IMG/VR virus record: IMGVR_UViG_3300044729_002487 | Coordinates: 1-64,000 of that record | Length of the DNA: 64,000 nt | Origin: a virus | Strand: one strand, 5' to 3' | Part shown: piece by piece, positions 279-21,565 of the stretch | How positions within the stretch are numbered: the stretch's first letter is position 1 | Layout of the letters: each line of letters starts with the position of its first letter | Notes under the pieces: model-generated | What the model saw: the letters and a program-made list of their open reading frames with translations, nothing else | What the model was told of the DNA's origin: nothing | Databases searched by the model: none | Translations under genes and position numbers: made by a program

Positions 279-1436
279 ATGTATAAACTATTTTATATTG
301 AAAAAGATACAACGTTGTATGAACGCATACCTACCCAAAACACGGGTATAGATCCGATATTAGAAATAACAAAAATTGCGTCTGGAAGTAAATTAGAAGG
401 TGTAGTACAAGCAAAAACATATAATACACGTATATTAATAGATTTTGGAAATCAACTTACTGTATTGTCGCAATCAATAGCAACTGGTAAAATTCCTAAG
501 GTCGGTAATTCACCAAAATCTGCATCTGTATATTTGACTATGGTAGCCGCGGATGCTACTGATTTACCTTTATCTTTTCAATTAAAAGCATTTCCGGTAT
601 CACAATCCTGGACAATGGGTAATGGAAATTTAAACGATAATCCAATTTCTAAAAAAGGCGTGTCATGGTATTACCGTGATGCGGATGAACCAGGGACGAG
701 ATGGAATACTGGATCAGCTCATAGTAAAAATGATTATTCTACGACAGAATTAAAAGGCGGTGGTACATGGATTACCGGGTCAGGATTTGAAGCTAGTCAA
801 TCTTTTTCATTTCCTACCGACTTAGATGTTCGTATGAATATCACTGATATAGTATCAAAATGGTTAAAAAAGACAATTCCTAATAATGGATTGATACTTA
901 AACGTCCTAAGGCTGATGAACGGTCTGGTGATATATTAGGTAGTATTAAATATTATGGAAATGAAACGCATACTATTTTTATTCCAAGATTAGAAGTATC
1001 ATGGAATGATTCAATACTAACCGGTACTGCATCGTTAAACGAAATTTCTTCTGAGACATATGTACCATATTTTAAAAATATAAGACCGACATACCGTACC
1101 GAGGATAAAGCAAAATTCCGAATTGGTGTAAGACCAGAATATCCTACTCGTACGTATGGTACAGGTTCGGTATATTTAACTGAATATCGTTTACCTACAT
1201 CGAGTTATTATACTATAGTCGATGCATATACAAATCAAACATTGATACCGTATAATACAAAAGCAACGCAGATATCATGTGATGCAGAAGGTTCGTTTTT
1301 TAAATTAGATATGAATTCATTTATGCCAGAACGTTATTATAGAATTATGTTAAAGGTAGAGCGTGATGGTGGAGATGATGTACAAATACATGACAATGGA
1401 TATTATTTTAAAGTAGAGCGATATAATGGCAGATAG
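279..1436 (+). CDS. Virion structural protein, possible carbohydrate-binding jelly-roll
   Basis: 385 aa. A beta-rich protein without transmembrane segments. Residues about 105-190 contain SWYYRDADEPGTRW and a GGGTW motif, recalling DNRLRE/CBM96-type jelly-roll domains in which a W-x-x-GG-x-T-W pattern is typical; this is a weak similarity. It lies between a baseplate-type fragment and a 916-aa structural protein whose start overlaps its last 11 nt, so the two are probably translationally coupled. A role in the baseplate periphery or in host-surface binding is inferred from position. Confidence 0.5.
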   Translation: MYKLFYIEKDTTLYERIPTQNTGIDPILEITKIASGSKLEGVVQAKTYNTRILIDFGNQLTVLSQSIATGKIPKVGNSPKSASVYLTMVAADATDLPLSFQLKAFPVSQSWTMGNGNLNDNPISKKGVSWYYRDADEPGTRWNTGSAHSKNDYSTTELKGGGTWITGSGFEASQSFSFPTDLDVRMNITDIVSKWLKKTIPNNGLILKRPKADERSGDILGSIKYYGNETHTIFIPRLEVSWNDSILTGTASLNEISSETYVPYFKNIRPTYRTEDKAKFRIGVRPEYPTRTYGTGSVYLTEYRLPTSSYYTIVDAYTNQTLIPYNTKATQISCDAEGSFFKLDMNSFMPERYYRIMLKVERDGGDDVQIHDNGYYFKVERYNGR

Positions 1437-4176: not shown

Positions 4177-4196
4177 CCCGTAAAGTCAATTAGTTG

Positions 4197-4204
4197 ATAT
4201 TTAT
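4197..4204 (+). promoter_or_regulatory. ATATTTAT late-promoter-like element
   Basis: Perfect ATATTTAT. It ends only 6 nt before the ATG of the 1628-aa gene, which has no SD, so a transcript starting here would be leaderless or nearly so. Confidence 0.5.
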
Positions 4205-4210
4205 TAATGT

Positions 4211-7200
4211 ATGCCATTAAGTAGATTTACAAATATTGAAGAAATACGATCCGAACCTGGATTAGTACGGGGTGTGTTATGGAATCAATCTGCAATCGCA
4301 GAATTAGATTTAGATGAAGTAGTAGTACGTCCAGAATTTACGCCAGATGTAGAAGTTCATATTTATACACCGACGAATGAGACATATTTAGCTGGTGGAC
4401 CTATAACAGATTTTGTACAACGTGGTGATAAGATATATATTGATTATGTATCTGTATTTGCTAAGTATGGTATTAAACGAGGATTTTTTAGAGTAGTTGT
4501 CAATGTACATTACAGTATCACCGGCGATTATGAGTATCCAACTTTAAAAGTCGTTGAAACATCATCAGATGGTTTAGAAGTTTTATTAAAACAATTTTCG
4601 CCTCGAGCAAATGATACCAGACCACGTACAATTGTACAAGATTTTTTAACGGCATATCCTAAAGCATATGAACGTGATTTTGCATTAAATTTTGGCGAAA
4701 ATCAAATATTTAAAATTCTTAATTACAAACGTTATTTAGATGATAATGTACTAGCAGTACGCGTAAGTCAGGTATTACCAAATGAATTAACTGATTTAAC
4801 TCGTGTTAACATTGTTGAACAACTTACTGATTCATGGATTGATAATATAAGTTTAGATCAGTTAGCTCCGTCCACGCCGATAAGTAAATTACGAGGTCCT
4901 AATTTTGAAATTGAAAGTGGTTATACTACTATAACTGAAACCGATTTTTTAAATTGGAATCAATTGTTAGGAACTAATATTTCAACATCTCAAAAAATTG
5001 TAGATTCATTTTTCTCCGGATCTATCGCAGGTGTTGAATTAGGAATTGATTATACAGCATTTCCTAATTATGTTTATTATTCATCCGCGGCACATCGTGT
5101 TGCAAATTTTAAACAAAAATTAGAATCGATAGAATATTACAATGAACGATTAGGAATACTAAATAATGTAAGCGGTTCATCTTCTGGTTCATTATCTGTA
5201 AACATTGCTAATGTTACTAAGAAAATTGATAATGTTGTTGGTAGTTTTGATTCATTCGAACGTTGGTTGTATAATGAACCGACTGCTAGTATTTTTACAC
5301 ATGGATTATCCGGAAGTGCTATAGCCGGTGAAGGTGAATTTTTTGCCGTAACTCCATATCCTAAACGTATTGTCAATAGCAAGCAAGTATTATATCATTC
5401 AACAGCATCTGTTAGTGATACATGGTACAATGACTTGTATGCGGCTGCTCGTTCATATGATGATAATAATCCACATGCATTAGTAAAAGCTATTCCATTA
5501 CATATTAGAGAGGATGCAAATAATAGCGAATTTGAAACATTCGTTAATATGATAGCACATCACTTTGATATTTTATATACATATGCAAATTCATTAACAC
5601 GAGTACATGTAAAAGAAGAACATCCAAAACGTGGTATTGATAAAGATGTGTTAGTTGATATAGCTCGTTCTCAGGGTTGGCATTTGGTTAATGGTAACCA
5701 GGCAAGTCAGTTATGGAAATATAAATTAGGTACAAACCAATCAGGTGAGTATGCATCAACCGGTAGTATTTTTTCATTAAGCGATGAAATGATTACTGAT
5801 GAGGTATGGAGACGTATAGTAAACAATTTACCATATATTCTTAAAACTCGAGGTACTGAACGTGCAATAAAAGCGCTATTAAATATTTACGGAATACCAC
5901 AAACCATATTAAGTATACGTGAATATGGTGGACCGTTAGTAGGAGAAGAATGGCCAGCATTAACTGAAGATAGATACTCATACGCGGTATTATTTAACTC
6001 AGGTTCGTCGATTAGGTATCCAGCGGTTCATGTAAGTTCAAGTATTGCAAATTGGGGCCGGCGATTAGGTAAAAATAATGTTGTACCGCCACAAACACGA
6101 GAATTCCGTTTTAGGCCTTCATATACCGGTAGTATGTTATTGTATTCTCAGATAAGTTCATCCGGGTCTCCTTTAATGCATATTGCGTTAGAATATACAA
6201 GATCGTTTTCTGGCAGTAATACATATGGTCGTATCAATACAGTCTTTGCAAGAGCTAATGGATCTGCGCCTGTAACATCGTCAACAAAATGGCTGCCATT
6301 GTATAATGGCCAATATTGGAATATCCGTTATGGATGGACAACACCGGGTATACATTTTAACACCGGTTCAAATACTAATACGACATATAATATTAAAGTC
6401 CAGCAATCATCTAATTTTATACGCGGTAAAATTAATTTTTCAGCTAGTATTAATATTACTCCGAATAACGCTAATCATTATTTAGTATGGTCACATCCAA
6501 AAGATATAACAAAAAATATTGTACATATAGGTGGTAACACTGGATCTGCCGATACATTGAATGTTAATAGTTATCTTTCACATCGAATGAAAGGACGTGT
6601 TGGTACGTTCTCAGGTTCAATGCAAGAATATAAAGAATGGCTTGAATTCATTGATAACGCAGCATTCGATGATCATACATTTAATCCAACATCATATGTA
6701 AGTTATTTATCTCCTAGTAGTTCATATGACACATTAGTACGTCATTATACATTAGGATCTGAACTTATTGGTGTTAATTTAAACACATTTAAAATTATAT
6801 CATCGAGCCATCCAAATCAAGCAATAAACGATTTTACAAGGGCTAATCCGTATTCTACAAATGCAACGGCTAATAACTTTAAAGTGCCATCCGATACTCA
6901 AAGGGGTAATTTCATACCAGTCGAAGAAACATATTATATTAGAGGTGCATCGTTAGGAGCTAATAATCCTAGATCTGAAAAAATACGTTTAGAAGATAAT
7001 TTCCTTGTACGTCGATTATCACCTACAAATACGGCAGAACGATCTAGTTTTGATACTGCGCCATTGGATTCTAATAAATTAGGTTTATTTTATAGTTTTG
7101 CTGACCAAGTCAATAAAGATATCTTTAATCAAATTGGTACAATAGACTTAGATGATTACGTTGGTGATCCTGATGATGAACATGAATTGGCATATGAAGA

Positions 7201-9097
7201 TTTAAAATTCTTTGCAACGCAATACTGGAAGAAATTTAATAATTCATCAGATGTAAATTCATTTAACCGTATTTTTAGTCAATTTGATTTTTCCGTATTT
7301 AATCAGATAAAACAAACTTTGCCATTACGAGTTGATGACGTTTCTGGATTATTAGTTGAACCTAACATATTAGAACGTTCTAAGGTACAACTTACTAAAC
7401 CAATTAAAGTTGAAAATCCGCAGTATGATATCGTAATCAATCAGATACCGCCTACTAGTAGTGGTGTTGTAACAGTACCGTATGAAGCGTTAATTGATAA
7501 TGGTGAAACGACAGTATACACGCCTTCTGCTACATTCCAAGAAGAATACATCGGTCAAACTAATTTGATTCAATATACTAGTAGTATGAATTATTGTACT
7601 ATACAAACATTACCGGTAGATGAATTGATGACATATACCGCATCTATAATTGATTCGAATTATTTTGTTAGTAAATCTGGCGCGTTTACTTATGGTTATG
7701 TAAAAAATTATTATGGTAATCAAGATGTATTATTTGATCCGACAAGTACTAAATCAACTGCATTATGGAGAGATATATCAGTGCCTATCTTTTCAAAATT
7801 TAATTGGAATGAAAAAATTCAAACTGTAACTAGTGGTGCTACTATTAGTACTGGGACAGTTGCTACCGGTAGTTACGCAGATCAAATACGGTTTAAATTA
7901 GATACATATAATCAGTATGATGTACATGCACGTCCGGAAATACGATTTTTAGACACTGCTAATCCATTTCCATCGGCGGCCGGTTATCCAACGCTTGAAT
8001 ATACATTATTATTAGCTGAAACTGAAACATCTGATATTAATTCTCGTATAACGCGTGTATTAGATTCGCAAATTTTTCAAGCAGCATCAAATGGTGCTGG
8101 CAAAACAGTTAAGTTTAAAAGTGTATTGATTCCGGCTCAGACACATTTAGTTGTGATACTGCAAATGAAATTACCAGCTCAAACGTATTTAGTTTATGTT
8201 GGTACTCAGGTAAGTGCGTCGATTACATTTCAACCAAATAAAGCTATAAAGGCAGATGGTAGTCAAAATATGCCATATGATACTAATTATACTGCATCGG
8301 TTGCTAATGCGGATATCGTAACAAACGCGCATAATATTAATTGGTTTATTGATAATTTAGGTAGTAGTTGTTTAATGTATCATAATGCGGCTCCTCAACC
8401 TTTTGATATAGATGGTGTCGATACTAATGAAACACTAGCTGCACAACTATTAATGACAAATGCTAGTGGTTCTGATACTTGGATATATTTAGGTCCGACA
8501 GCGGATGGCAATCCTAGTATTAATGAATCATTTAATGATGTCGCTGATGCAATTGCTCCTTTCACTGTAGATATTACTGATGTATTTGACGGATCTGGAA
8601 ATTTTTCTTGGGAATCCGGATCATTCAGTACTTCCAATGCAACAAGCGTATCACAAATCGATTTCTCATGGTTCCGTGTATATATGACAATCGATGAAGT
8701 ATGTCATACTGCGAGAGGAGCTGAAATAAATGAACCTCGTACTAGCGGTATATATCAAAAATATATTTATCATTTCTCTGGCAGTCCTTCTATTACAAAT
8801 CCAATTGCTCGTAATTTAGCCGCGGCTCAAAGTGAATCATTAGGAATATATTACAGTAGAAGTTTAGCGCCAGCAAGTTATCGTGATGATTTCTTTGAAA
8901 CATATGAACGTGCATTTTATACAGGTACTCAATTAACTGCTACAGCAGTTAATCAAAATTCAACTAATGCAGCGTTAGGAAATGCACCAATTATAGAAAT
9001 TTATGAAGTTAATCCAAACCAAATTTTCTATAATTCAACGCCTAGACAGGCTGGTCCAGGAAATACTTTAGATCCTGGAAACATAACAATTAGATAA
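4211..9097 (+). CDS. Giant baseplate/tail structural protein with gpI-like segment
   Basis: 1628 aa, the longest product in the window. Around residues 540-570 it has the sequence ILKTRGTERAIKALLNIYGI, which resembles the KGT...A...LL...G signature of P2 gpI-type tail proteins and of very large structural proteins in other myoviruses. The rest is rich in Ser/Thr/Asn and beta-prone, with no membrane segment. No SD precedes the ATG, and an ATATTTAT element lies just 6 nt upstream. The alternative ATG at 4207 runs into a stop at once, so 4211 is preferred. Probably a baseplate wedge or periphery protein; the fold of most of the chain is unknown. Confidence 0.6.
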   Translation: MPLSRFTNIEEIRSEPGLVRGVLWNQSAIAELDLDEVVVRPEFTPDVEVHIYTPTNETYLAGGPITDFVQRGDKIYIDYVSVFAKYGIKRGFFRVVVNVHYSITGDYEYPTLKVVETSSDGLEVLLKQFSPRANDTRPRTIVQDFLTAYPKAYERDFALNFGENQIFKILNYKRYLDDNVLAVRVSQVLPNELTDLTRVNIVEQLTDSWIDNISLDQLAPSTPISKLRGPNFEIESGYTTITETDFLNWNQLLGTNISTSQKIVDSFFSGSIAGVELGIDYTAFPNYVYYSSAAHRVANFKQKLESIEYYNERLGILNNVSGSSSGSLSVNIANVTKKIDNVVGSFDSFERWLYNEPTASIFTHGLSGSAIAGEGEFFAVTPYPKRIVNSKQVLYHSTASVSDTWYNDLYAAARSYDDNNPHALVKAIPLHIREDANNSEFETFVNMIAHHFDILYTYANSLTRVHVKEEHPKRGIDKDVLVDIARSQGWHLVNGNQASQLWKYKLGTNQSGEYASTGSIFSLSDEMITDEVWRRIVNNLPYILKTRGTERAIKALLNIYGIPQTILSIREYGGPLVGEEWPALTEDRYSYAVLFNSGSSIRYPAVHVSSSIANWGRRLGKNNVVPPQTREFRFRPSYTGSMLLYSQISSSGSPLMHIALEYTRSFSGSNTYGRINTVFARANGSAPVTSSTKWLPLYNGQYWNIRYGWTTPGIHFNTGSNTNTTYNIKVQQSSNFIRGKINFSASINITPNNANHYLVWSHPKDITKNIVHIGGNTGSADTLNVNSYLSHRMKGRVGTFSGSMQEYKEWLEFIDNAAFDDHTFNPTSYVSYLSPSSSYDTLVRHYTLGSELIGVNLNTFKIISSSHPNQAINDFTRANPYSTNATANNFKVPSDTQRGNFIPVEETYYIRGASLGANNPRSEKIRLEDNFLVRRLSPTNTAERSSFDTAPLDSNKLGLFYSFADQVNKDIFNQIGTIDLDDYVGDPDDEHELAYEDLKFFATQYWKKFNNSSDVNSFNRIFSQFDFSVFNQIKQTLPLRVDDVSGLLVEPNILERSKVQLTKPIKVENPQYDIVINQIPPTSSGVVTVPYEALIDNGETTVYTPSATFQEEYIGQTNLIQYTSSMNYCTIQTLPVDELMTYTASIIDSNYFVSKSGAFTYGYVKNYYGNQDVLFDPTSTKSTALWRDISVPIFSKFNWNEKIQTVTSGATISTGTVATGSYADQIRFKLDTYNQYDVHARPEIRFLDTANPFPSAAGYPTLEYTLLLAETETSDINSRITRVLDSQIFQAASNGAGKTVKFKSVLIPAQTHLVVILQMKLPAQTYLVYVGTQVSASITFQPNKAIKADGSQNMPYDTNYTASVANADIVTNAHNINWFIDNLGSSCLMYHNAAPQPFDIDGVDTNETLAAQLLMTNASGSDTWIYLGPTADGNPSINESFNDVADAIAPFTVDITDVFDGSGNFSWESGSFSTSNATSVSQIDFSWFRVYMTIDEVCHTARGAEINEPRTSGIYQKYIYHFSGSPSITNPIARNLAAAQSESLGIYYSRSLAPASYRDDFFETYERAFYTGTQLTATAVNQNSTNAALGNAPIIEIYEVNPNQIFYNSTPRQAGPGNTLDPGNITIR

Positions 9098-9110
9098 TTC
9101 AACAATGAGC

Positions 9111-9118
9111 ATATTTAT
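9111..9118 (+). promoter_or_regulatory. ATATTTAT late-promoter-like element
   Basis: Perfect copy, 19 nt before the ATG of the 221-aa gene; a GGAG SD lies between element and start. Confidence 0.55.
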
Positions 9119-9137
9119 TAAAAAATCGGAGTAAAAC

Positions 9138-9803
9138 ATGGGATATTTAGATAATAGTACAATAACAGTAGATGCTATTTTAACTAAAAAAGGAAGAGAG
9201 TTATTAGCGCGTGGACAGAATGAGTTTAAAATTACTCAGTTTGCTTTAGCCGATGACGAGATTGATTATGATTTATATAATCTTGAACATCCACTTGGTA
9301 CAGCATATTACGGTGCAGCAATTGAAAATATGCCTGTAGTAGAAGCATTAACAGATGAATCACAAATGATGAAATATAAATTGGTAACATTACCTAAAGG
9401 TACTGCGCGTATACCAGTTATTTCAATTGGTCAAACAGAAATAACATTGCGTGATAATCAATCAGTTGTTGTTCGTCCGGTAACGACTAATTTTGTCCAA
9501 GGTAATCAATCATTTGGTTATACAGCAATTTTATCAGACTCCGATGCGGCTACAATCGTAGCTACAAAAGCAGCTCCAAATTCATCTGGTGCAACTGTAC
9601 CTCAATTTATTGGTGATAACGAAGCAGCGCAGTCAGTAACTGTAACTGGTGTTGAATTTGAAATTACAGCTAAAGGACAATTAATATCTAGACGCACAGC
9701 CACTGTATTAATTATTGGTAATGAAACAGGTGGTAGAGCATTATTAACGATAACGATTGAACCTCAGCAAATTCAAGGTATATCTAATATAGCATCGTTA
9801 TAA
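9138..9803 (+). CDS. Virion structural protein
   Basis: 221 aa. The N-terminus carries VDAILTKKGRELLARG followed by FKITQFALADDEIDY. I recognise this opening from structural proteins of T4-like marine phages, where its exact role is not established. The remainder is beta-rich. GGAG SD with 7-nt spacing supports the start. Preceded by an ATATTTAT element and followed after 15 nt by another structural gene, so likely part of a late structural transcript. Confidence 0.6.
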   Translation: MGYLDNSTITVDAILTKKGRELLARGQNEFKITQFALADDEIDYDLYNLEHPLGTAYYGAAIENMPVVEALTDESQMMKYKLVTLPKGTARIPVISIGQTEITLRDNQSVVVRPVTTNFVQGNQSFGYTAILSDSDAATIVATKAAPNSSGATVPQFIGDNEAAQSVTVTGVEFEITAKGQLISRRTATVLIIGNETGGRALLTITIEPQQIQGISNIASL

Positions 9804-9818
9804 TAATTAAAGGAAAAA

Positions 9819-11063
9819 ATGGGACTTGGGAATAGAAACGTAACAGTACAAGGAAGATTAAACCCTAGGCCATCAGCCGCGGCTGGTGCTGTAGAAGCAA
9901 CTGCGAGACAAATTGCAGATCAAATTATACGCGAAAGAGACTTTGCAAGACAACGTTCTAGAAACGGTCGTGTATATACACCGTTTAATCCAACAGATGA
10001 CGTATTACCAAATAATATTGAAATTGTTACTAAAGGTTTATTTTCTGGTAACACTGGTAGCTTATTAAATTTCCATACACAATCATCTGCTACAGCGATA
10101 CAAAATACTTACTTTCGTCAAATTTACAATGAAAAATCGACGAACCGTACAGCTCAACCGCAATTTTCAATTGCATATGGTCACTATTTAGGATCTGGTT
10201 CAAAGGACCTTACCGGTAACTTAAATGATGATACACCTAGCCGTGCTATTTATAAACAATATGCTCAATTATTGTTACAGCCATTAGATAAGAAATTTAC
10301 AATTAATGGACAAGATACTGATAGTATTTATGTACTTAATTTTAATAGAGCTCGTTTCCGTGAAAAGTTAGATCCAGGAAATTTAGAAATTAATTTATCA
10401 CAATTATCCGGTGCATTTTATGCTAACCGAATTCATACCGGTTCTAATGTAAAACCAACTAAAGGCGCGGGAGTTGCTCGTAAAGTCATTTCATTAATTG
10501 ATGATTCGTCATTATCATCGGCTCGTGTTGTTGAATCTGGACGTGTTTATAATATTGTATCTGGTACTATTGATGATGGTACGGTTATTCATAAATCATC
10601 AGCTCCTCATTATTATGGATTAATTTATCCTGAGGCTGGTGTTATAATTTTAGATGCAAAAAAATTAGACATATCATGTTCGTTTAATACCGTAACCGGA
10701 TCTGGAGTACAAGGTGATAATGCTATGAAATTGTTTAGATCTATTTCTGGATCTGCAGTTGCATTAGCGCCATCAGGTAGAAATTTTGGATTACAAGCTC
10801 GATCATCAGAGCAAGTTAAATCTACTTATTTCTTTGTACGTGTAAAAAATGGTGATTATAACTATTCAAATAATCCATCATTCGTATCTGGATCTAATGG
10901 CGATTTAGCATATTCTACTTTTATTAATAATCCGCAGACATATATTACAACTGTTGGTTTATATAATGACCGTAAAGAATTGTTAGCAGTAGCAAAAATG
11001 AGCCAGCCTATATTGAAATCATTTACGCGAGAAGTATTGATTAAGGTAAAATTAGATTTTTAA
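9819..11063 (+). CDS. Virion structural protein with shared C-terminal module
   Basis: 414 aa. The first 60 residues are Arg/Ala rich and helical; the rest is beta-prone. Residues about 372-400 read YITTVGLYNDRKELLAVAKM, almost the same as residues 552-579 of the next gene, so the two proteins share a C-terminal module even though the rest of their sequences differ. Such a shared end often marks a common docking or trimerisation site (inference). AAGGA SD before the start. No enzymatic motif seen. Confidence 0.55.
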   Translation: MGLGNRNVTVQGRLNPRPSAAAGAVEATARQIADQIIRERDFARQRSRNGRVYTPFNPTDDVLPNNIEIVTKGLFSGNTGSLLNFHTQSSATAIQNTYFRQIYNEKSTNRTAQPQFSIAYGHYLGSGSKDLTGNLNDDTPSRAIYKQYAQLLLQPLDKKFTINGQDTDSIYVLNFNRARFREKLDPGNLEINLSQLSGAFYANRIHTGSNVKPTKGAGVARKVISLIDDSSLSSARVVESGRVYNIVSGTIDDGTVIHKSSAPHYYGLIYPEAGVIILDAKKLDISCSFNTVTGSGVQGDNAMKLFRSISGSAVALAPSGRNFGLQARSSEQVKSTYFFVRVKNGDYNYSNNPSFVSGSNGDLAYSTFINNPQTYITTVGLYNDRKELLAVAKMSQPILKSFTREVLIKVKLDF

Positions 11064-11074
11064 GATAATATGAT

Positions 11075-12853
11075 ATGCCTATTACACCGTCAGTATTTAG
11101 ACCGATACGTAGAAACGATATACACCAAAGACCATTTAAAGCATATAAAAACTATGTTGTAAATGACTTTGGTGCCATCGATGAAAAATTCGGTGTACAA
11201 CGTGCTTCACATAAAAAATTTACTGCCCATGTAGGTGATGATACATATCGGTATCCAAAAAATTCTACTGATAGTACAAACCAACATGTTGTATGGAAAT
11301 GGATAGATAATCGATATTATCGTTATCCATATGACCAAACAAGGTGTATGGAATTAACAGATGAAAATACTGTCGAAAAAAGATACTTTATGACAGCATC
11401 TATAATTACTGTACCATATCATCAAATGGGCGAACGAATAAAACCGGGTTCATTAACGTTCTCATCTTATATATCAGGATCGGCGACAAACTTATTAAAT
11501 AAAGTTTTTCAAGTAACCGGATCTGATGACAGTCATGGTAATTTACGTGATATACAAATATCAACTGCATCATTTGCGTTACCAAATAGATGTATGATGT
11601 ATTTTCATTTTAATGATCAGTTTAGAAAATTTGATGACAATTTTGGTCAGTTAAGGACAAACGATTCTATACCGTATAATCTTAAACGACGTATATATAA
11701 TGCAAAAGCATCAAACGTTGTAATTGAACGAGGTGTTAGTACGTTTGTTTCACATAGTTTATATGTACCGTCCGGCCTATCCGGATATTTTTCAAGTAGT
11801 TTAAACTCATATGTAAAATTAAATGACAATCAATTATTTGAACAATTTCAGCGATGTGATCAATGGTTATTATCGTTTTGGATTAAACCTAAGAATTTAA
11901 CTAGTACCGGTAGTATAATAAGTAAAATTGCAAATATCAATGAACAATATTATGATAACATTGATAAACGTAGAAAGATACGTGAAGTAAACAAAGGAAT
12001 ACCGGTACCGGGCAAAAATTTTGCAAATTATCGTACGCCATTTCATATCTCGTTAATTGGTAATAAAATACATTTTCAAGCATCTGATGGTTTACGACAA
12101 ATGCATTTATCTGCATCACTTAATTTACGAGATGGTTGGGCACATGTAGCTGTTGCTAATTCAGCATCTTTATGTAAAATGTATGTTAACGGAAATCTTA
12201 CTGGTAGTGAAGGACGTATACCAATTGATTCGACAGCTAATGATGCAAATGTACTTATTGGCACTGATACATTAGATACGACTAGACAATATACTTTTAA
12301 CGGTAATATTGCAGAAGTACGGATGTACGATTATGCATTATCTCAGCCACAAATTAAATCGTTAGCTAATATAGATTTTTATACAGGTTCTATATATCAG
12401 ACAAATGTTTTTGGTAACGTCTTTTACCGCAATGGCGCTGTTGTAATGTCATCGCCAATGCCAAAATATCATGACGTATTATTTGTCAAACCAACCGGTT
12501 CGATGAATCAATTTAAAATGACATACAAAGGACAGCATACTATTTACGAAAATGAAGTAATGGTACGTATACCAAAAAATGCATTTAATATATCTACTAA
12601 TCCATCATCTGTATACAGACCGGCTGCTGGAATTGATAATGGATGTAACACTACTGGCGGTAATGCTGAGAAATTTTTACGACCAGGCGATTACCGAAAA
12701 ACCATGTTTATATCAGGTACAGCTTTTCCATATATTACAACTGTCGGTTTATATAATGAACAAGGTCAATTATTAGCAGTTGGTAAAATGGCAGAGCCGA
12801 TTCAAAAACGAGATGATGTTGATATGAACATTGTAATACGCTGGGACTATTAA
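11075..12853 (+). CDS. Virion structural protein with LamG (concanavalin-like) domain
   Basis: 592 aa. Residues about 258-432 form a LamG/Laminin_G_3-like domain: WLLSFWIKPK at its start, then DGWAHVAVANSASLCKMYVN, and finally FNGNIAEVRMYDYALS. All three are hallmark positions of this jelly-roll family, which binds carbohydrates or proteins. The C-terminal module (about 552-579, YITTVGLYNEQGQLLAVGKM) is shared with the upstream protein. No clear SD; the start lies 11 nt after the previous stop, so coupling is likely. A surface-exposed virion protein, possibly contacting host glycans (inference). Confidence 0.7.
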   Translation: MPITPSVFRPIRRNDIHQRPFKAYKNYVVNDFGAIDEKFGVQRASHKKFTAHVGDDTYRYPKNSTDSTNQHVVWKWIDNRYYRYPYDQTRCMELTDENTVEKRYFMTASIITVPYHQMGERIKPGSLTFSSYISGSATNLLNKVFQVTGSDDSHGNLRDIQISTASFALPNRCMMYFHFNDQFRKFDDNFGQLRTNDSIPYNLKRRIYNAKASNVVIERGVSTFVSHSLYVPSGLSGYFSSSLNSYVKLNDNQLFEQFQRCDQWLLSFWIKPKNLTSTGSIISKIANINEQYYDNIDKRRKIREVNKGIPVPGKNFANYRTPFHISLIGNKIHFQASDGLRQMHLSASLNLRDGWAHVAVANSASLCKMYVNGNLTGSEGRIPIDSTANDANVLIGTDTLDTTRQYTFNGNIAEVRMYDYALSQPQIKSLANIDFYTGSIYQTNVFGNVFYRNGAVVMSSPMPKYHDVLFVKPTGSMNQFKMTYKGQHTIYENEVMVRIPKNAFNISTNPSSVYRPAAGIDNGCNTTGGNAEKFLRPGDYRKTMFISGTAFPYITTVGLYNEQGQLLAVGKMAEPIQKRDDVDMNIVIRWDY

Positions 12854-12885: not shown

Positions 12886-13293
12886 ATGTCATGGAATTCA
12901 TCATCAAAGGCTAGACGCAATGCTATAAAACATGGTTACAGGTCCGGATTTGAACATATCATCTCAGATCAATTAACAGAGGCTAAAGTTGAATTTGGCT
13001 ATGAAGATACTGTAATCAATTATATTAAGCCAGAAACTAAACACAAATATACAGTTGACTTTAGATTACCAAATGGCATTCTAATCGAAACAAAAGGACG
13101 TTGGACAGCCGATGACCGTAAGAAGCATTTACTTGTCAAGAAGCAACATCCTACCGTAGATATAAGAATAATTTTTCAATCGGCCAAAACAAAAATAAGA
13201 AAAGGTTCAAAAACATCGTACGGCGATTTTTGTGACAAGTACGGAATTCAATGGGCGGAAAAAAAGATTCCGGAAAGTTGGTTAAAAGGTTGA
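12886..13293 (+). CDS. T7-type endonuclease I (Holliday junction resolvase)
   Basis: 135 aa, close to the 149 aa of T7 gp3. The core matches T7 endonuclease I closely: SGFEHIISDQL at the N-terminus, YTVDFRLPNGILIETKGRW carrying the PD-(D/E)xK-like catalytic Asp, Glu and Lys, then DDRKKHLLVKKQHP, and TSYGDFCDKYGI near the end. The family cleaves branched DNA (Holliday junctions, replication forks), acting as a dimer during recombination and before packaging. T4 itself uses the unrelated gp49 for this job. It sits directly upstream of primase and the Mre11-Rad50 fusion, a coherent recombination cassette. The AAGG SD supports the start. Confidence 0.93.
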   Translation: MSWNSSSKARRNAIKHGYRSGFEHIISDQLTEAKVEFGYEDTVINYIKPETKHKYTVDFRLPNGILIETKGRWTADDRKKHLLVKKQHPTVDIRIIFQSAKTKIRKGSKTSYGDFCDKYGIQWAEKKIPESWLKG

Positions 13294-13320
13294 TTCTTTG
13301 AGAAAATTTTAATATATTTA
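13289..13320 (+). promoter_or_regulatory. Host-type promoter (GTTG-N20-TATATTTA)
   Basis: GTTG at 13289-13292, a 20-nt spacer containing CTTTGAGAAAA, and TATATTTA at 13313-13320. It aligns without gaps to the four other 32-bp elements in this window; the -33 element is slightly degenerate (GTTG for TTTG). It starts just inside the end of the endonuclease I gene and would give a leader of about 90 nt for primase. Confidence 0.65.
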
Positions 13321-13363
13321 ATGTATTAATAAATTTGTATGAATGTATATGAATACAACATTG

Positions 13364-13378
13364 ACATATGAAATATGT
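13364..13378 (+). promoter_or_regulatory. Inverted repeat in the primase leader
   Basis: ACATAT-GAA-ATATGT, a perfect 6-bp inverted repeat with a 3-nt centre, inside the AT-rich leader between the promoter and the primase ATG. It could be an operator or a weak hairpin; AT-rich sequence makes chance occurrence possible. Confidence 0.3.
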
Positions 13379-13417
13379 AATGAAAATAATTAATATAATT
13401 AATATTAATATATAATA

Positions 13418-14344
13418 ATGAGTAACTTTCCGATAATCACGCTTCTCGAAACGGTGTTAGGTAAAGGGCGCATTTCAACGAACGATAACGTCGCATTTAA
13501 CTGTCCTTTTTGTCATCACCATAAAAAGAAACTTGAAGTTAATATCACATCTCAACATTGGCATTGTTGGGTTTGTAATGCAGCTGGACGTAAGTTACCT
13601 TTATTATTACGGCGGTTAAATGTTGATAGAACAAAGATATCTCAATTAACTGTAATGTTAGAAGACGTTGAATATAAACCAAAAACAACGACTACGAATA
13701 CTCCGGTATTATCATTACCTGAAGGATTTAAACCATTATGGATTCTTAATACTAATTCTCCAGATTTTAGAAATGCAATTCATTATCTACGTGGTAGAGG
13801 TATTACAATTTATGATATACTTAAATATCGAATTGGATATTGTGAATCCGGAGCGTACGCTGGCAAAATAATCATTCCGAGCTTCGATGCCAATGGAAGT
13901 TTGAATTATTTTGTATCACGTGCATTTTATAAAGATGATTTACAGAAACATAAGAATCCAGCATTTTCAAAAGATATCATTGGATTTGAATTACATATCA
14001 ATTGGGAAATGCCAATCATCTTAGTCGAAGGCGCATTTGATGCAATTGCCATACGACGCAATGCCATTCCATTATTTGGTAAGACAATATCAGATACATT
14101 GAAAAAGCGTGTAATTGAAAGAAAGGTTAAAACAATTTATATTTGTTTAGATAATGATGCTCGTAAACAAGCATTGGAAACGGCTGAGTATTTTATTTCA
14201 AATGGTATACATGTACATTTCGTTGACTTACCTACGGGCGATCCAAGTGAATTAGGATTTGCTCAAGTAAAAGATATCATCGAAGATACAATTGAATTAA
14301 CAGCAGATAAATTAATGCAAGAAAAAATATTATGCAGACTATAA
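13418..14344 (+). CDS. DNA primase (DnaG/gp61-like)
   Basis: 308 aa. An N-terminal zinc finger with C29-x2-C32 and C50-x2-C53 (NCPFCHHH and HCWVCNAAG) matches the CHC2 family. A Toprim-type catalytic region follows: ILVEGAFDAIAI holds the conserved Glu and TIYICLDNDARK the DxD-like acidic pair. It makes RNA primers for lagging-strand synthesis. At 308 aa it is similar in size to T4 gp61 and has no fused helicase, so a separate helicase must lie outside the window. No SD; the leader is very AT-rich. Its end overlaps the next gene by 13 nt. Confidence 0.88.
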   Translation: MSNFPIITLLETVLGKGRISTNDNVAFNCPFCHHHKKKLEVNITSQHWHCWVCNAAGRKLPLLLRRLNVDRTKISQLTVMLEDVEYKPKTTTTNTPVLSLPEGFKPLWILNTNSPDFRNAIHYLRGRGITIYDILKYRIGYCESGAYAGKIIIPSFDANGSLNYFVSRAFYKDDLQKHKNPAFSKDIIGFELHINWEMPIILVEGAFDAIAIRRNAIPLFGKTISDTLKKRVIERKVKTIYICLDNDARKQALETAEYFISNGIHVHFVDLPTGDPSELGFAQVKDIIEDTIELTADKLMQEKILCRL

Positions 14345-17300
14345 ACATTGGAATAGATAAGATTGATAAAATCTTTCATATAGCAGATGTACACGTACGT
14401 AACGTAAACCGCCATAAAGAATATTCAGAAGTCTTCAAACGGCTGTATACATACATTCGAAAAAATAAAACAGCGAATAGTATTATTTATGTGGCTGGTG
14501 ATGTAGTACATGCTAAAACAGATATGTCACCGGAATTAGTCCATATGGTATCAGATTTTTTCAAATCATTAGCCGACATTGCGCCTACTATATTAATCAC
14601 CGGAAACCATGATTGTAACTTAAATAACTCTAATCGTTTGGATGCCTTGTCTCCCATTGTTAGAGCCTTAAATCATTCATCCTTACACTATCTTAAAGAC
14701 AACGATGTATATGAGATATCGAATGTACACTTTAACGTTATGTCAGTGTTTGAAAAGCCAGCAAATTATATAAAAGCCACAGATTTTAATGGTAAAATAA
14801 AAATTGCATTACACCATGGAGCTGTAAATTCTGCGACAACTGACTTAGGAATTACCTTAAGTAACACACATGTCACTACTGATTTATTCGCCGGACATGA
14901 TTTAGTATTGTTAGGTGATATACATAAAATGCAATTTTTAGATGATAAAAAACGAATTGCATATCCTGGATCGTTGATTCAACAAAATCACGGCGAAGGA
15001 TTGGTACATGGTATATTTGAATGGTGCCTAAATGATTTTTCAGCAAAGTTTGTTGAAATTGAAAATACCTATGGATATTATACATTTGAAGTTGAAAATG
15101 GTAAAATTCTTAATCCATCTGATAAGGTACCGAAAAAACCGCGTATACGTATCAAAGTGAAAGATACCGATTCTGCAGATCTTAAACGTATCATTTCAGA
15201 AATACGTACACAATATAAAGTACAAGAAGTAGCTATTCATAAAATTCATTCATTGAATAGTGGACAAGCACAACAGAAAGTTGGGTTTGGAAATATACGC
15301 GATGTAGAATGGCAAAACAAAATTATTACAGAGTATTTAGAAAATGAACAAGGGTTAGATGACCAGATGTTAGATGTTGTAAGGCATATTAATAGAACTG
15401 TTCATTCTAAATTACCTGAATCTGAAATGACTCGTAACGTTGTATGGTCACCTAAGACATTTGAGTTTTCGAATATGTTTAGTTATGGCGAAGATAACTC
15501 AATTGATTTTTCAAATATATCTGGGGTTAATGGATTATTTGCACCTAATGCTAGTGGTAAATCAACATTATTAGATGCATTGGCATTTTGTTGTTTTGAC
15601 CGGTGTAGCCGTACAACAAAGGCAGTGCATGTATTAAATAATAAAAAGACGACGTTTACATGTAAATTAAATTTTGAATTAGATGGTCGTGATTATTATA
15701 TCGAACGCCGCGGAAAGAAACAATCTAACGGACATGTAAAAGTTGATGTAGATTTTTGGACTATTGGTGACTCTGGTGAAGAAGTGTTGCTGAATGGCGA
15801 ACAACGTGATAATACAAATAAAATTATACGTAAGTATATTGGTTCATATGATGACTTTATTTTAACAGCATTATCATTGCAAAGTAATAATACTGGGTTT
15901 ATTGACATGTCTCAACGTGAACGAAAAGAATTGTTAACTCAGTTTTTAGATATCGATGTTTTTGAATTACAGTATCAGATTGCTGCTGAAGATATTCGCG
16001 AAACATCGGCATTAATTCGTGAGTATAAACGCCATGATTATAGTACAATATTATCTGATGCTGAAAAGACACTTGACCAATTATCTGCTCCATATGAACG
16101 AATGAAACAGGAAAAGTTAGAACATGATAAAATGGTTACTGACTTAAATGATATTATCATATCACTTACAAAAGAGATAAAAACTATATCAGATGATGTT
16201 ATTGATCCAACTGTAGTTGAAAAAGAATTAGAAGATTTAGAAATAGCAGAATCCGATTTATTTGATACAATAAAGACGACAAAATCAGAATGGCGTAATT
16301 GGAATGCAACTATAGCTGATTGTGATTTACGTATAGCAAAATTTGATAAACAGGCGTTAATTGATGAAGTGCAAACAATTAACAATTATATTAAAGAACG
16401 TTCTGACTTAGATAGTAAACAACAGTTAGTTGCTGCTCGAATTGATCATGCCAAAGATATGGTATCAAAATTAAATAATCATAAATGGGATCCGAACTGC
16501 GAATTTTGTATGGCAAATCCATGGCTACAAGACACTCAATCAGTTGCCAAAGAATTACCATCATTGGAAACAGAATACGATGTAATTGATACTGCAAAAA
16601 CGCGTTTAACAGATTTAATCGATCAATCCGAAGCGGAATATGATTTGATTAAATTAGGTCAAATTGAAGATGAAAAATCGAATGCGGTTTGGCAAACTGC
16701 TACTTATGATAAACAGTTAGAAATATTAAAATCAAAATCTGAATTACACGTTTCTCGTAAGGAACAGGCTAATGAAAAATTAAATCGTTGTAGACAACAT
16801 GAAGCTGATTTAAAATTTAATGTACAAAAAACAAAAGAAATTGAAGAAGTTACATCAGAACGTGATGATTTAATTATTGAAATAAAATCTTTAGAAGATA
16901 GTATTTTATCTATATCTGGTAAAATTCAAGTCGCAGAGCAATCCAAACAAAATGCAATTCAGTCAATTGATCGATTGCAAGAACTTGAAACTCAATATAA
17001 AGGTTTTGAATATTATTTACAAGCAATAAAACGTGATGGTGTTCCGTATCAATTGATTACAAAAGCTTTACCTCAAATTGAAGCAGAGATAAATAATATT
17101 TTAACTCAGGTAGTTGATTTTTCAATGATATTAGAAACGGATGGTAAGAACATTAATGGTTATATCGTATATGATTCTGATAATTTCTGGCCATTAGAAT
17201 TGACATCTGGAATGGAAAAGTTTATTGCATCATTGGCAATACGTACATCATTGATAAATACGACATCATTACCACGTCCAAATTTCTTAGCAATTGATGA

Positions 17301-17478
17301 AGGATTTGGCGTGTTAGATTCTGAAAATTTGAATAACATGTATCTGTTATTTGATTATTTAAAATCTCAATTTGGGTTTGTGTTATGCATTTCTCATATT
17401 GATGCTATGCGAGATGTTGTAGATAAATTAATTGAAATCAAAAAAGTTAACGGATACTCTAAAATAAACTATTCTTGA
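14332..17478 (+). CDS. Fused Mre11-Rad50 (SbcD-SbcC; gp47-gp46) recombination nuclease
   Basis: 1048 aa. Residues 1-260 are a metallophosphoesterase like SbcD/gp47: D19-V-H21, G56-D57, GNHD at 91-94, H161-H162 and GDIH at 195-198. Residues about 370 onward are an SbcC/gp46-type ATPase: Walker A PNASGKST at 405-412, Q-loop around LQSNN, two coiled-coil arms, a zinc hook C723-x2-C726 at the coil tip, the signature LTSGMEKF and Walker B FLAIDEGFG. In T4 these are two separate proteins (339 and 560 aa); here they are one chain with no stop or internal restart. The complex resects DNA ends for recombination-dependent replication. Confidence 0.95.
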   Translation: MQTINIGIDKIDKIFHIADVHVRNVNRHKEYSEVFKRLYTYIRKNKTANSIIYVAGDVVHAKTDMSPELVHMVSDFFKSLADIAPTILITGNHDCNLNNSNRLDALSPIVRALNHSSLHYLKDNDVYEISNVHFNVMSVFEKPANYIKATDFNGKIKIALHHGAVNSATTDLGITLSNTHVTTDLFAGHDLVLLGDIHKMQFLDDKKRIAYPGSLIQQNHGEGLVHGIFEWCLNDFSAKFVEIENTYGYYTFEVENGKILNPSDKVPKKPRIRIKVKDTDSADLKRIISEIRTQYKVQEVAIHKIHSLNSGQAQQKVGFGNIRDVEWQNKIITEYLENEQGLDDQMLDVVRHINRTVHSKLPESEMTRNVVWSPKTFEFSNMFSYGEDNSIDFSNISGVNGLFAPNASGKSTLLDALAFCCFDRCSRTTKAVHVLNNKKTTFTCKLNFELDGRDYYIERRGKKQSNGHVKVDVDFWTIGDSGEEVLLNGEQRDNTNKIIRKYIGSYDDFILTALSLQSNNTGFIDMSQRERKELLTQFLDIDVFELQYQIAAEDIRETSALIREYKRHDYSTILSDAEKTLDQLSAPYERMKQEKLEHDKMVTDLNDIIISLTKEIKTISDDVIDPTVVEKELEDLEIAESDLFDTIKTTKSEWRNWNATIADCDLRIAKFDKQALIDEVQTINNYIKERSDLDSKQQLVAARIDHAKDMVSKLNNHKWDPNCEFCMANPWLQDTQSVAKELPSLETEYDVIDTAKTRLTDLIDQSEAEYDLIKLGQIEDEKSNAVWQTATYDKQLEILKSKSELHVSRKEQANEKLNRCRQHEADLKFNVQKTKEIEEVTSERDDLIIEIKSLEDSILSISGKIQVAEQSKQNAIQSIDRLQELETQYKGFEYYLQAIKRDGVPYQLITKALPQIEAEINNILTQVVDFSMILETDGKNINGYIVYDSDNFWPLELTSGMEKFIASLAIRTSLINTTSLPRPNFLAIDEGFGVLDSENLNNMYLLFDYLKSQFGFVLCISHIDAMRDVVDKLIEIKKVNGYSKINYS

Positions 17479-17503: not shown

Positions 17504-20500
17504 ATGCCATTACGGAAAAAAGCTAGTAAAATAAATCTTGCCGAAACGTTCACGTATGTTACTCGTGATACGTCCCCAACATCGGATCGTTATTTTGGTA
17601 TTGTTAAATTTCCGGATAGATTAACTGCTGGTAAAAACTTATTTAAGTTACGTATTAACAATACAAACTTTGTAGAGAATAGCCAGATTCATATTGAAAT
17701 TTTAGATTTTAACGGTGAACCGATATATTGGGAGCCATTGTATTATATTGAAAAAGATGGTACGCGAGTCATTGCTATTTATATCTATCCTGAAACCGCG
17801 CCCGGTAACGCAACTATTTATGTAGCCGGCCGTTTACGCGAAGGCGGAGGTACTGGTTTGCCATTTAGCCGTGATTTTAATTCACCACAGCATGCCGATA
17901 TTCCAAATATATTATGGAGTCGTACAGTACCAGTTGCGCCATTTGCATCAAATGATTCTGAAATAATATTTACTACTCAACCAAAATTAACGATAAGTGA
18001 AGTTGTACAGCCATATTTACAACCAACTAATTTAACAAATGTATTTACTCGAGTATCTGCATCTGCAAATGCAACATTGACAATTGTACCTCAGCCAAGT
18101 ACAACGACACAAACACCTGCAGTACCAGCATCGCCGGAAGGAGCATTATCAGCAGGTACACCTAATTTTGGAAAACAGTTTTTTGATATATCGACTATAC
18201 AAACAGCATTACAGCAATCCAATAATTCACAAATGGATTCGCCTCCATTAAATACATTGTCCGGATTTTCTAAATTAACTACTACAAACTTTCCATTATC
18301 AAAATCAATGGAAGGTGGTGTTTTAGTCATTAACAATCCGATTATATCGGTACCGCCGTTGACCGGTCGAAATTCGGCAAATAAAGTAATTCCTGGCAGT
18401 CAAACATCTACACAATGGAATAATAATACAGTAAATGCCGTTAGTAATCAAACATTGTCTGGTTCATACAAATTTGCTATTACACAAGTTATAAATTCGA
18501 CTACGGCTCGCGTTGCGCAATTTGCTGGATTTGCAAATGATGATGATAATACAAATGGACCATGGGCGGTACAGATAAGAAAAGGTCCGGTAACAACATT
18601 GAATTCTCCGACTGGTATAGTACGTGTACAACCTGCTACACAAACTATTAATCGTATAGAATCTGCGACATCATTTACTGCTAGTTTTACTAAACCAACA
18701 CAAGTTATTTATACTCAAAATTCATCGTCATTTGCTGATATAATTTTAGCTAATACTGAACCAGCGACTGGCGATGTATACCGTATAAAGACATTATATA
18801 AACCTAGTGGATTCTTTGGTGATTTCATTGATTTAGGTGATACAATACTAGAACGGCAAAACATTTTAATTGATAGTAGTTCATTAGAAACAAATATAGC
18901 CGTAGGATCTGCATATGAACAATTTGGTAACTTTGAAAGTTTACAAGAAATAAATACATATTGGTCTGCATCTTCTGTCGGTAATTTAGCTGCCAATCCA
19001 ATGGCATTGGCATATAATGAAGATATATTAATAGGAAGTGCTGATTTACGTACTAATTGGTCAGGTATTAATCAATATACTGCCTCAATTGGCGCAGCAT
19101 CGTTATTCCAGATAAAAAAATTATATCGACCGATAATTTATAAAGATACTACATATATTGTAAATTTTCAAGTCGGATTACCAAATGATATAAAATTATA
19201 TAATTCATTAGATCCAAACATATTAAATAATAGACTTGATGTATACATATCAGGATCATCAGTTACACCAGAGACAGAAACTCTTAACGTTTCTATAGGC
19301 GATGTATTTGTTGAACGTAATATACCAGCTACATTAACTGGAGTATTCGCAGATGGTAAACAGTTAGGAACTCGTATTGGTTCTGTTCGTTGCAAATCTA
19401 TACCAAAGGCAACTGCTACAGTTACATTACAATTCAAGGCCTTAAAAACCGGGCCGATGGATATTAAATTTGTTACTCGTCGCGGTACTTGGCTTGTAGG
19501 TGAAATTGAAGTATTAGCTGATAAACAAACAGGATTCTCACCTAATTATGTACGTGTATTCAAGCGTATTCCGACTGAACATTTAAAGACTCCATTAACG
19601 TTTAAGTTTCAATATTATGATTTTCGTGGTAATAAAGCCGATTTAGAGACAATTGCATATGGTGCTATTTTTAAAGGTGGTAACGTTTATATCGACGGAA
19701 ATAACAATTTAATGACAGGTTCTACATATATCGGTAACACTGTAGGATCTGGAATTGAAATGGCTGGTGTAAGTTCAGGTTATTTACGATCAGTTGGTTA
19801 TAAAGGATTTACATCTGCATCATTAGGTAAAGGTCCTGGCGGATTTTTAATGTGGTCTGGGTCAAACAATTTAACGGTAGGTGTTGATACATATTTAGGT
19901 GTTGGGTTAGAATTGATTGCAGGATCTGGTAGTTATTTCCGATATAGAACAAATCCATCAGAAATAATTGTACAGACGGATAAATTTTTCTTTGGTTCTC
20001 AAAATCAATATATAAGTGGTGCTAATGGTAACATTGAAATATCATCATCTAATTTTCATTTAGATGCCAATGGTAATGTTACAATGCAAGGTACTATAAC
20101 AGCTACTGCTGGTAACATTGGTGGATTTACTATTAAGTCATCATCATTGGCATCTTCTAACGGAAATATGTTTATTAGCGGTTCACCATTAATTGGTGGC
20201 GTTAACAATCGTCGATACATGTTTATTTCTGCATCGCGATTTAATGTTAAACAGAATGGTGATATATCTGGCTCTCAAGTATTGTTTACTGGAGGTAAGG
20301 TAGGAGGATTCCGTATCACTAATCAAGTTATTTCTGGCGCTAACATTATTATTGATTCGGCCGGTAGTATACGAACAGGTAATTATATTCCAGATTTACA
20401 AGGATGGGCAATTACATCCACCGGTAATGGATTTGCTGAATTTGAAAATGCTAAAATACGTGGTACTTTATCAACAGCTGTATTTGAAAAACAGTCTGTT

Positions 20501-21565
20501 AATGCTGTAGGCGGGCAATTATATATTGCAAATTCAACTGTATTAACCGGTAGTTCGCAATATCCAAACGGGAACCATCCTGCATCTGCCACTACAATGT
20601 CAGTTGAAAATGTGACAGGATTTGTAGCAGGTGAAATATTATCAGCTAAAAAAGTAACATCGACTGGATTTAAAACAGAATATATACGAGTAATGTCAGC
20701 CTCGCGATTTTTTCCGGCAAGCGAAACAAATTTAAGTGGTCGATTGTTTGTTCAACGTGCGTATGGTTCTGGTGTTAGTGGGCCATCTGCATCATTAGGA
20801 GGCACTCCCGGTACAGCTCAATCGTATAGCGGTTCTCAGGTATTGGTAAGTACGGGCCGAATCGGTACGGGTTATATTCGAATAAATGCAAATCCGCAAG
20901 ACGATTCAACACCGTTTATTGATATTGTTGAGCGAACCGGTTCTGGTATTTATGCAGTCGATTTAAAAGCACGTTTAGGAGATTTATCCGGACTATCGGG
21001 CACATCAAAAGTGTTAGGCCGTACTAATCCTGGATTTGGATTAGCAACTGATAATGTTTACCTTCAAGGCGGTATCAATGCTCGGTTTGGTAACATTGGT
21101 GGATTTGCTATAACGCAACATGCTATTACCGGTTCCGGATTTTTCCTGTCTGGATCTGCTCCGAATTCCGGTGTTAATTTACGACGTAACATGTTCATTT
21201 CTGCATCGCGTTTCAATGTGAAAGGTAATGGTGATATCACGGCATCAAATGCATTATTTAGTGGAAATGTGACAGCGGCTAATTTTACTGTCCGGCTAGT
21301 CACTGTCGTAAATGCTAATTCTGGATCATATTTACGTTCAGTCGCTGGCGGTAAAAAATTAGTATTTAATGGAGCATTAGGCGGTTTACGTACATATGCC
21401 ATGTCAATCGACGTTGATTCGCCATTTGTCATTAAAGGCATTGAATTACCAAATACCGGTTCGGGTATAAATAATACAGTTGATGTATATATACAAACTC
21501 AAGGAATAACCTTTGATGATACCGTCGTTGGTACCGGTATTGCAAGTGCATTTCCTGCTCGATAA
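17504..21565 (+). CDS. Large tail fibre / tail-tip-like structural protein
   Basis: 1353 aa. The N-terminal 150 residues are a beta-sandwich-like region. From about residue 690 the chain is glycine/serine rich, with repeats resembling central tail fibre (J-type) proteins. Two diverged copies of a module are visible: GNIGGFTI near residue 869 followed by RRYMFISASRFNVKQNGDI near 900, and GNIGGFAI near 1196 followed by RRNMFISASRFNVKGNGDI near 1225. AAGGA SD supports the start. The next gene starts 12 nt downstream. Probably a fibre or a host-contacting baseplate component; the receptor cannot be inferred. Confidence 0.6.
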   Translation: MPLRKKASKINLAETFTYVTRDTSPTSDRYFGIVKFPDRLTAGKNLFKLRINNTNFVENSQIHIEILDFNGEPIYWEPLYYIEKDGTRVIAIYIYPETAPGNATIYVAGRLREGGGTGLPFSRDFNSPQHADIPNILWSRTVPVAPFASNDSEIIFTTQPKLTISEVVQPYLQPTNLTNVFTRVSASANATLTIVPQPSTTTQTPAVPASPEGALSAGTPNFGKQFFDISTIQTALQQSNNSQMDSPPLNTLSGFSKLTTTNFPLSKSMEGGVLVINNPIISVPPLTGRNSANKVIPGSQTSTQWNNNTVNAVSNQTLSGSYKFAITQVINSTTARVAQFAGFANDDDNTNGPWAVQIRKGPVTTLNSPTGIVRVQPATQTINRIESATSFTASFTKPTQVIYTQNSSSFADIILANTEPATGDVYRIKTLYKPSGFFGDFIDLGDTILERQNILIDSSSLETNIAVGSAYEQFGNFESLQEINTYWSASSVGNLAANPMALAYNEDILIGSADLRTNWSGINQYTASIGAASLFQIKKLYRPIIYKDTTYIVNFQVGLPNDIKLYNSLDPNILNNRLDVYISGSSVTPETETLNVSIGDVFVERNIPATLTGVFADGKQLGTRIGSVRCKSIPKATATVTLQFKALKTGPMDIKFVTRRGTWLVGEIEVLADKQTGFSPNYVRVFKRIPTEHLKTPLTFKFQYYDFRGNKADLETIAYGAIFKGGNVYIDGNNNLMTGSTYIGNTVGSGIEMAGVSSGYLRSVGYKGFTSASLGKGPGGFLMWSGSNNLTVGVDTYLGVGLELIAGSGSYFRYRTNPSEIIVQTDKFFFGSQNQYISGANGNIEISSSNFHLDANGNVTMQGTITATAGNIGGFTIKSSSLASSNGNMFISGSPLIGGVNNRRYMFISASRFNVKQNGDISGSQVLFTGGKVGGFRITNQVISGANIIIDSAGSIRTGNYIPDLQGWAITSTGNGFAEFENAKIRGTLSTAVFEKQSVNAVGGQLYIANSTVLTGSSQYPNGNHPASATTMSVENVTGFVAGEILSAKKVTSTGFKTEYIRVMSASRFFPASETNLSGRLFVQRAYGSGVSGPSASLGGTPGTAQSYSGSQVLVSTGRIGTGYIRINANPQDDSTPFIDIVERTGSGIYAVDLKARLGDLSGLSGTSKVLGRTNPGFGLATDNVYLQGGINARFGNIGGFAITQHAITGSGFFLSGSAPNSGVNLRRNMFISASRFNVKGNGDITASNALFSGNVTAANFTVRLVTVVNANSGSYLRSVAGGKKLVFNGALGGLRTYAMSIDVDSPFVIKGIELPNTGSGINNTVDVYIQTQGITFDDTVVGTGIASAFPAR

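Follow-up and report, generated by a model that had tools for sequence, protein, structure and literature searches.

The window analysed here, 64,000 nucleotides long (positions 1 to 64,000 of IMG/VR virus record IMGVR_UViG_3300044729_002487), carries a gene in which a nuclease of the Mre11/SbcD type and an ATPase of the Rad50/SbcC type are joined in one open frame (Table 1). The frame runs uninterrupted from its ATG to the stop over 1048 codons. Its ATG lies inside the end of the upstream primase gene, and it is the only copy in the 85,514 bases of its own record that were searched. The initial annotation had assigned nuclease and ATPase motifs to one 1048-aa frame, which is borne out, the motif positions agreeing to within about one residue; the 1:1 ratio of nuclease to ATPase that it proposed follows from the fusion into a single chain. 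With one frame and one copy, the gene departs from the T4 gp46/gp47 type, which has two separate subunits, and shows the arrangement of the fusion type of Yoshida et al. (2011), in which both parts lie in one frame with the nuclease first. Judged by its motifs and predicted structure, the gene product is very probably an entire Mre11-Rad50 complex in a single chain, with a putative role in the processing of DNA ends.

Two scans of viral contigs yielded 177 and at least 591 relatives, figures that stand for relatives and not for confirmed fusions. The best 80 were kept from each scan, under a ranking that favours full-length matches, and gave 154 distinct loci. The survey of relatives that the initial annotation had recommended revealed that the fusion recurs: it lies whole and in one frame in 141 of the 154 contigs. 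Eleven of the 154 contigs end within the gene yet span the junction; in L071, which starts at residue 292, the frame continues across the linker. A two-gene arrangement was seen in none of the 154, a count subject to the ranking's preference for full-length matches, under which split or distant relatives would go unlisted. The starts of the relatives were set by script at the nearest ATG, which affects the first residues only. After removal of 12 identical rows, the 144 intact frames, including that of the window, represented 132 distinct proteins; these underlie the residue counts given below, in which L003, L004, L043 and contigs that end within the gene are not included, and many of the contigs are near copies. 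In L043 the junction is spanned and a single in-frame stop (8515-8517) occurs later, in the coiled coil, after which the frame resumes.

Of the 635 GenBank phage records that matched, coverage of the query reached 80% or more in four, namely that of Microcystis phage Mel-JY01 (44.3% identity), that of an uncultured 484-kb phage (37.9%) and a pair from an uncultured 735-kb phage (24.8%). Thirty plasmid records matched and none of them covered 80% of the query; the plasmid fusions mentioned in passages of the 2011 paper (PMC3175470) were not seen at this sensitivity. A search of the window and of L003 for an intron or other RNA element revealed no Rfam family at the gathering score. Fusion genes were also encountered in contigs binned as Nitrosopelagicus, an unnamed bacterium, Dehalococcoidia and Pelagibacteraceae (L086-L089, of which L087-L089 are cut by contig ends). 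These are probably phage contigs inside metagenome bins, and infection of the binned hosts is possible.

The N-terminal part has the attributes of an SbcD/Mre11 nuclease, namely a phosphoesterase domain with its motifs and, in the predicted structure, a capping domain. The Pfam family Metallophos matches residues 13-198 with 35.1 bits (cut-off 21.5), and the motifs DVH, GD, GNHD, HH and GDIH are located at residues 19, 56, 91, 161 and 195, respectively. D19, D57, N92, H93, D94, H162, D196 and H198 are kept in all 132 distinct intact proteins and H21 in 128, whereas H161 is found in 78, the remainder having Y or F. H60 (in GDxxH) and D196 (in GDxH) are likewise invariant in the window's group (132 of 132); the fusion has GDIH where a comparison with split nucleases revealed GHxH as the common form. 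Over residues 11-304 the N-terminal model matches S. aureus SbcD, nuclease and cap together (7dog_A; Z 25.0, 273 residues).

The C-terminal part has the split ABC ATPase head of SbcC/Rad50 and a coiled coil with a CXXC hook, for which zinc binding is predicted. AAA_23 matches residues 380-616 (55.9 bits, Pfam cut-off 27), SbcC_Walker_B matches weakly (16.3, under its cut-off of 27), and PHROG 77, a phage SbcC family, covers residues 323-1047. Walker A reads APNASGKST, the signature LTSGMEKF and Walker B IDEGFGVLD; K410, S411, C723, C726, S959, G960, E962, D989, E990 and H1022 are kept in every one of the 132 proteins. In the structural comparison, residues 372-1048 match E. coli SbcC, the alignment starting with the first SbcC residue (7yzo_D; Z 31.7, 348 residues, root-mean-square deviation (rmsd) 3.1). 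As read from motifs and models, the chain is thus ordered nuclease, cap, two helices, a linker of about eight residues, N-lobe, coil, CXXC hook, coil and C-lobe, with the motifs intact.

Table 1 Features of the fusion gene and of the two genes preceding it, in positions of the window
Feature	Position	Strand	Basis or remark
Mre11-Rad50 (SbcD-SbcC) fusion gene	14332..17478	+	1048 aa, one frame
Mre11/SbcD calcineurin-like nuclease, residues 13-198	14368..14925	+	Pfam Metallophos; fold match to solved SbcD/Mre11
Capping domain, residues 247-304	15070..15243	+	predicted structures; model 11-304 aligns to 7dog_A
Helix-loop-helix, residues 325-359, likely Rad50-binding domain	15304..15408	+	both models
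Short linker, about residues 364-371	15421..15444	+	between Mre11 and Rad50/SbcC alignments
Rad50/SbcC ATPase N-lobe, about residues 372-560, Walker A 404-412	15445..16011	+	Pfam, motifs, fold match
Coiled-coil arms, about residues 542-899, hook between	15955..17028	+	predicted structure
Zinc hook CEFC, residues 723-726	16498..16509	+	motif; C723 and C726 in 132/132
ATPase C-lobe, about residues 900-1048: signature 957, Walker B 988, H1022	17029..17475	+	motifs, fold match
DnaG-type primase (Toprim; weak zinc-ribbon match)	13418..14344	+	overlaps fusion by 13 bases
T7-type endonuclease I	12886..13293	+	PF05367, 181.7 bits

How the two halves are connected was deduced from two AlphaFold2 models, one of the full chain and one of residues 1-370, the latter folded alone because the ATPase dominated the comparison of the whole model with the PDB. 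The models were built on 39 sequences, that is, on 39 of the 40 representatives with less than 90% identity from the first scan, L002 being left out. Both show strands at residues 247-255 and 269-277, a helix at 281-294, a strand at 299-304 and helices at 325-340 and 344-359; residues from about 306 to 319 are of low confidence and may be flexible. Q328, N329, I353 and N354 are invariant across the 39 sequences. Residues 12-364 align to T. maritima Mre11 from the Mre11:Rad50 complex (3tho_B; Z 24.3, 320 residues, rmsd 10.8), and in the alignments to five Mre11/SbcD chains taken from such complexes (3tho_B, 7yzo_B, 6s85_B, 3qg5_D and 7yzp_B) the last aligned residue is 361-364, with a high rmsd. 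Residues 325-359 are probably the helix-loop-helix Rad50-binding domain of Mre11, an assignment from the models that is the weakest step of the structural reading. The parts of the cellular interface seem to be present in residues 247-359, and the true linker would comprise only about eight residues. The proposal of the initial annotation that residues 260-370 replace the subunit interface is therefore not supported: the models place the cap and the two helices there, and the alignment to solved SbcC sets in, with the first SbcC residue, at residue 372 of the model, which leaves residues 364-371 as the linker.

The stretch 245-378 is nearly constant in length, with 133-137 residues in 130 of the 132 proteins and 141 or 142 in two. 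The mean frequency of the top residue is 0.54 at positions 246-375, compared with 0.34-0.35 in the coils, 0.66 in the nuclease and 0.71-0.74 in the ATPase lobes. The ratio of nonsynonymous to synonymous substitution rates (dN/dS) over residues 246-375 is 0.040-0.048 (window versus L005 or L091, with which L092 is identical) and in the coils 0.14-0.28, rough figures given that dS is near 1. Several observations weigh against the structural and functional reading. The alignments that reach the helix-loop-helix have rmsd values of 6.0-20.3, few rows cover the region beyond residue 309, and the N-terminal model is supported by alignments mainly within residues 8-309. The predicted TM-score (pTM) of the full model is 0.45, such that the placement of the domains and their docking in cis are tentative. 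Finally, D196 occupies the position of a His in most of the split nucleases compared, and the activity may therefore differ.

That the fusion is an error of assembly or sequencing, by which a stop and a start between two genes were erased, is hardly conceivable. The whole fusion recurs across the contigs and the junction is spanned in those that remain, the isolate Mel-JY01 is fused too, and nearby pairs show purifying selection across the linker. An assembly artefact was rejected because of this recurrence, and a sequencing error at the junction, one of the two circumstances that the initial annotation regarded as fatal to the fusion, fails because the same frame is found in other contigs. 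The other circumstance was internal initiation. It is clearly unlikely that the fused frame also, or only, gives rise to separate subunits, either in this way or by cleavage of the linker, although an in-frame ATG at codon 346 has a Shine-Dalgarno-like stretch (-4.3 kcal/mol versus -0.7 at the real start), M382 is kept in 132 of 132 proteins and its ATG scores -2.2, and residues 306-318, of low confidence in the models, may be flexible. M346 is kept in only 18 of the 132 proteins, a start at 382 would delete the first ATPase strand (371-380), and the nuclease part would still be made only within the whole chain unless this were cut. Internal initiation at M366 was rejected, since only 3 of the 132 proteins have this residue; M346 and M382 remain weak candidates. 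A search of 15 records for further copies of either part also bears on the question. In two of them (G001 and G005), Metallophos also matches separate short frames, of 247 and 261 residues above the cut-off and 219 below it, that have no AAA_23 match, an observation that counts against the single-chain reading. Every AAA_23 match, present in 14 of the 15 records, falls in a frame of 1049-1077 residues, and in G003, which has no AAA_23 match, the Metallophos match lies in a frame of 1056 residues. Most of the 15 records are fragments; in the 190-kb record of Mel-JY01, deposited as complete, the sole AAA_23 and the sole Metallophos match are both in the fusion.

The fusion gene lies in part of a myophage, as the record contains genes for terminase, portal, major head protein, tail sheath and baseplate hub. 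Further genes of the record specify a UvsX-like recombinase, a DnaB-like helicase, a single-strand-binding protein and parts of a DNA polymerase; a ribonucleotide reductase and a second exonuclease are encoded as well. A primase homologue is located upstream of the fusion in 111 of the 112 loci with at least 2.5 kb of upstream sequence, within 500 bases in 110 of them, the sole locus without it being L004; an endonuclease homologue is upstream in 90 of the 112, many of which are near copies. From this gene setting and the analogy to T4, DNA-end processing for UvsX-dependent recombination and replication is the likely role. It is rather unlikely that the breakdown of host DNA, to which the nearby T7-type endonuclease I and a note in the T4 record (gp46/gp47 are required for recombination and host-DNA degradation) would point, is instead the main function: the conserved primase and the UvsX-like, single-strand-binding, helicase and polymerase genes argue for recombination and replication, and the two roles are compatible with each other.

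In the mechanism proposed for the fused protein, the helix-loop-helix would dock on the coiled-coil base of its own chain and two chains would pair to form the usual M2R2 head, with the hooks joined via zinc. ATP-gated closing would then allow the nuclease to cut and resect DNA ends, and the resulting 3' single strands would be available to the phage UvsX-like recombinase for recombination-dependent replication and repair.

The trio of endonuclease I, primase and fusion (12886-17478) is flanked by a structural-like gene (11075-12853) and a large frame (17504-21565) without a PHROG match, and it stands apart from the other replication genes, which lie beyond 63 kb. Five consecutive open frames at 279-11063, the longest of 1628 aa, remained without a PHROG match at the E 0.001 level and are possibly large structural proteins of this phage group.

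The history of the fusion was approached by two trees, one for the nuclease and one for the ATPase heads, each with 29 rows, among them 15 proteins of the window's group and 12 hand-picked split pairs. Several rows are long-branched, and the positions of L004, E. coli, Monoglobus, Salinibaculum and the Moorella phage are uncertain. The window's proteins cluster together in both trees (83/73 for the nuclease, 99/100 for the ATPase) and are joined by the fusion of the 735-kb phage (100/98 and 99/96). In both trees the fusion of Xanthomonas phage XacN1 is placed beside phages 121Q and Muenster, which have split pairs (99/96 and 96/90); because it sits among split jumbo-phage pairs, fusion probably arose more than once, and that of XacN1 looks like a separate event. 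In the predicted-structure search, the top five matches were proteins of giant viruses, 969-1389 aa long. The identities in this search (Klosneuvirus 28%, Tupanvirus 25%, Terrestrivirus 25%, other giant-virus rows 17-22%, phage rows mostly 13-19%) are only suggestive of a direct kinship with Mimivirus R555. A doubtful, tentative scenario is that the fusion arose once, long ago, is the sole form of Mre11-Rad50 in a large clade of environmental phages and was later passed to protist giant viruses such as Mimivirus, as an obligate single chain with nuclease and ATPase always in cis.

Some relatives deviate from the common form. In L003 (2980-7202; LR756508.1, the uncultured 484-kb phage) the fusion gene is broken right after GDIHK by another open frame, which is cysteine-rich and nuclease-like by eye; the first piece has an extra tail and the second its own ATG, and this may be a gene in pieces created by a homing endonuclease. 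L004, L180, L181 and L183 represent a distinct, longer fusion type, with 1202 residues in the 735-kb phage and 1239 without a stop in L180, L181 and L183. L182, L184 and L187 match this type nearly over its full length, and L185, L186, L188 and L189 match only residues 4-678. Further fold-search rows of about 1000 aa or more, such as Listeria phage LMTA-57 and Tenacibaculum phages pT24 and PTm1, may be fusions.

The T4 proteins gp47/gp46 and the E. coli proteins SbcD/SbcC have a function that the two parts of the window protein would share. Comparison of the sequences revealed shared domains and motifs; the T4 and E. coli pairs differ in that they are encoded by two genes and contain GHFH and GHIH instead of GDIH. 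The statement of the initial annotation that these are two subunits in T4 and in cells holds for both pairs but omits the fusions described in 2011 (PMC3175470). XacN1 ORF305 (L170:2263-5562; 1099 aa), annotated merely as 'recombination endonuclease subunit', resembles the window gene in having Metallophos and AAA_23 in one frame but has GHFH, not GDIH, and matches the query over 75% only. The relative in Mel-JY01 (WWT39521.1) is full length, aligns over 99% of the query and also has a primase-like gene upstream; it differs in its length of 1066 aa and in a 57-aa hypothetical gene between primase and fusion. Its record labels it 'AAA domain containing protein' and does not name a fusion, and no paper in the collection searched names this phage. 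Among the papers listed in the literature searches, only PMC3175470 has Mre11/Rad50 fusions in its title; passages of a jumbo-phage review (PMC7824862) speak of SbcC and its partner SbcD and are silent on fusion.

According to passages of Yoshida, Claverie and Ogata (2011; PMC3175470), Mre11/Rad50 fusions occur in Mimivirus, eukaryotes, bacteria, plasmids and a Bacillus phage. As in the window gene, Mre11 precedes Rad50; in the published fusions the cap and the helix-loop-helix are kept and the linker is short, as is probable here. The Mimivirus fusion protein R555 shares with the window's group the H for the last D of GDxxD and the D for His206 of P. furiosus, but both departures also occur in Proteus phage RP7, which has two genes, and are therefore no proof of kinship with R555. 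R555 has 1351 aa and a coil as long as that of cellular homologues, whereas the window protein has 1048 aa and belongs to a tailed phage. According to the same passages, homologues of R555 are numerous in the viral fractions of samples from aquatic and other sources, and some of the ocean scaffolds with such homologues also carried primase genes of phages and endonuclease genes of the T7-gp3 type, a combination likewise seen in the window. The aquatic R555-like fusion genes were suspected to be partly of phage origin, the fusion having been confirmed in only a few long scaffolds. The window gene closely fits this description; the finding is sound, and its kind is already known. Added here are full-length fusions from many viral contigs, the near-constant linker, the structural assignment of residues 247-371, the conserved neighbours and the evidence for a separate fusion in XacN1. 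That whole fusions lie on viral contigs, in most cases next to this primase and endonuclease, bears on the phage origin suspected in 2011 (PMC3175470), and a natural complex in one chain of roughly 1050 residues, of which a Microcystis phage supplies one example, could suit structural and single-molecule work on the motion of Mre11-Rad50.

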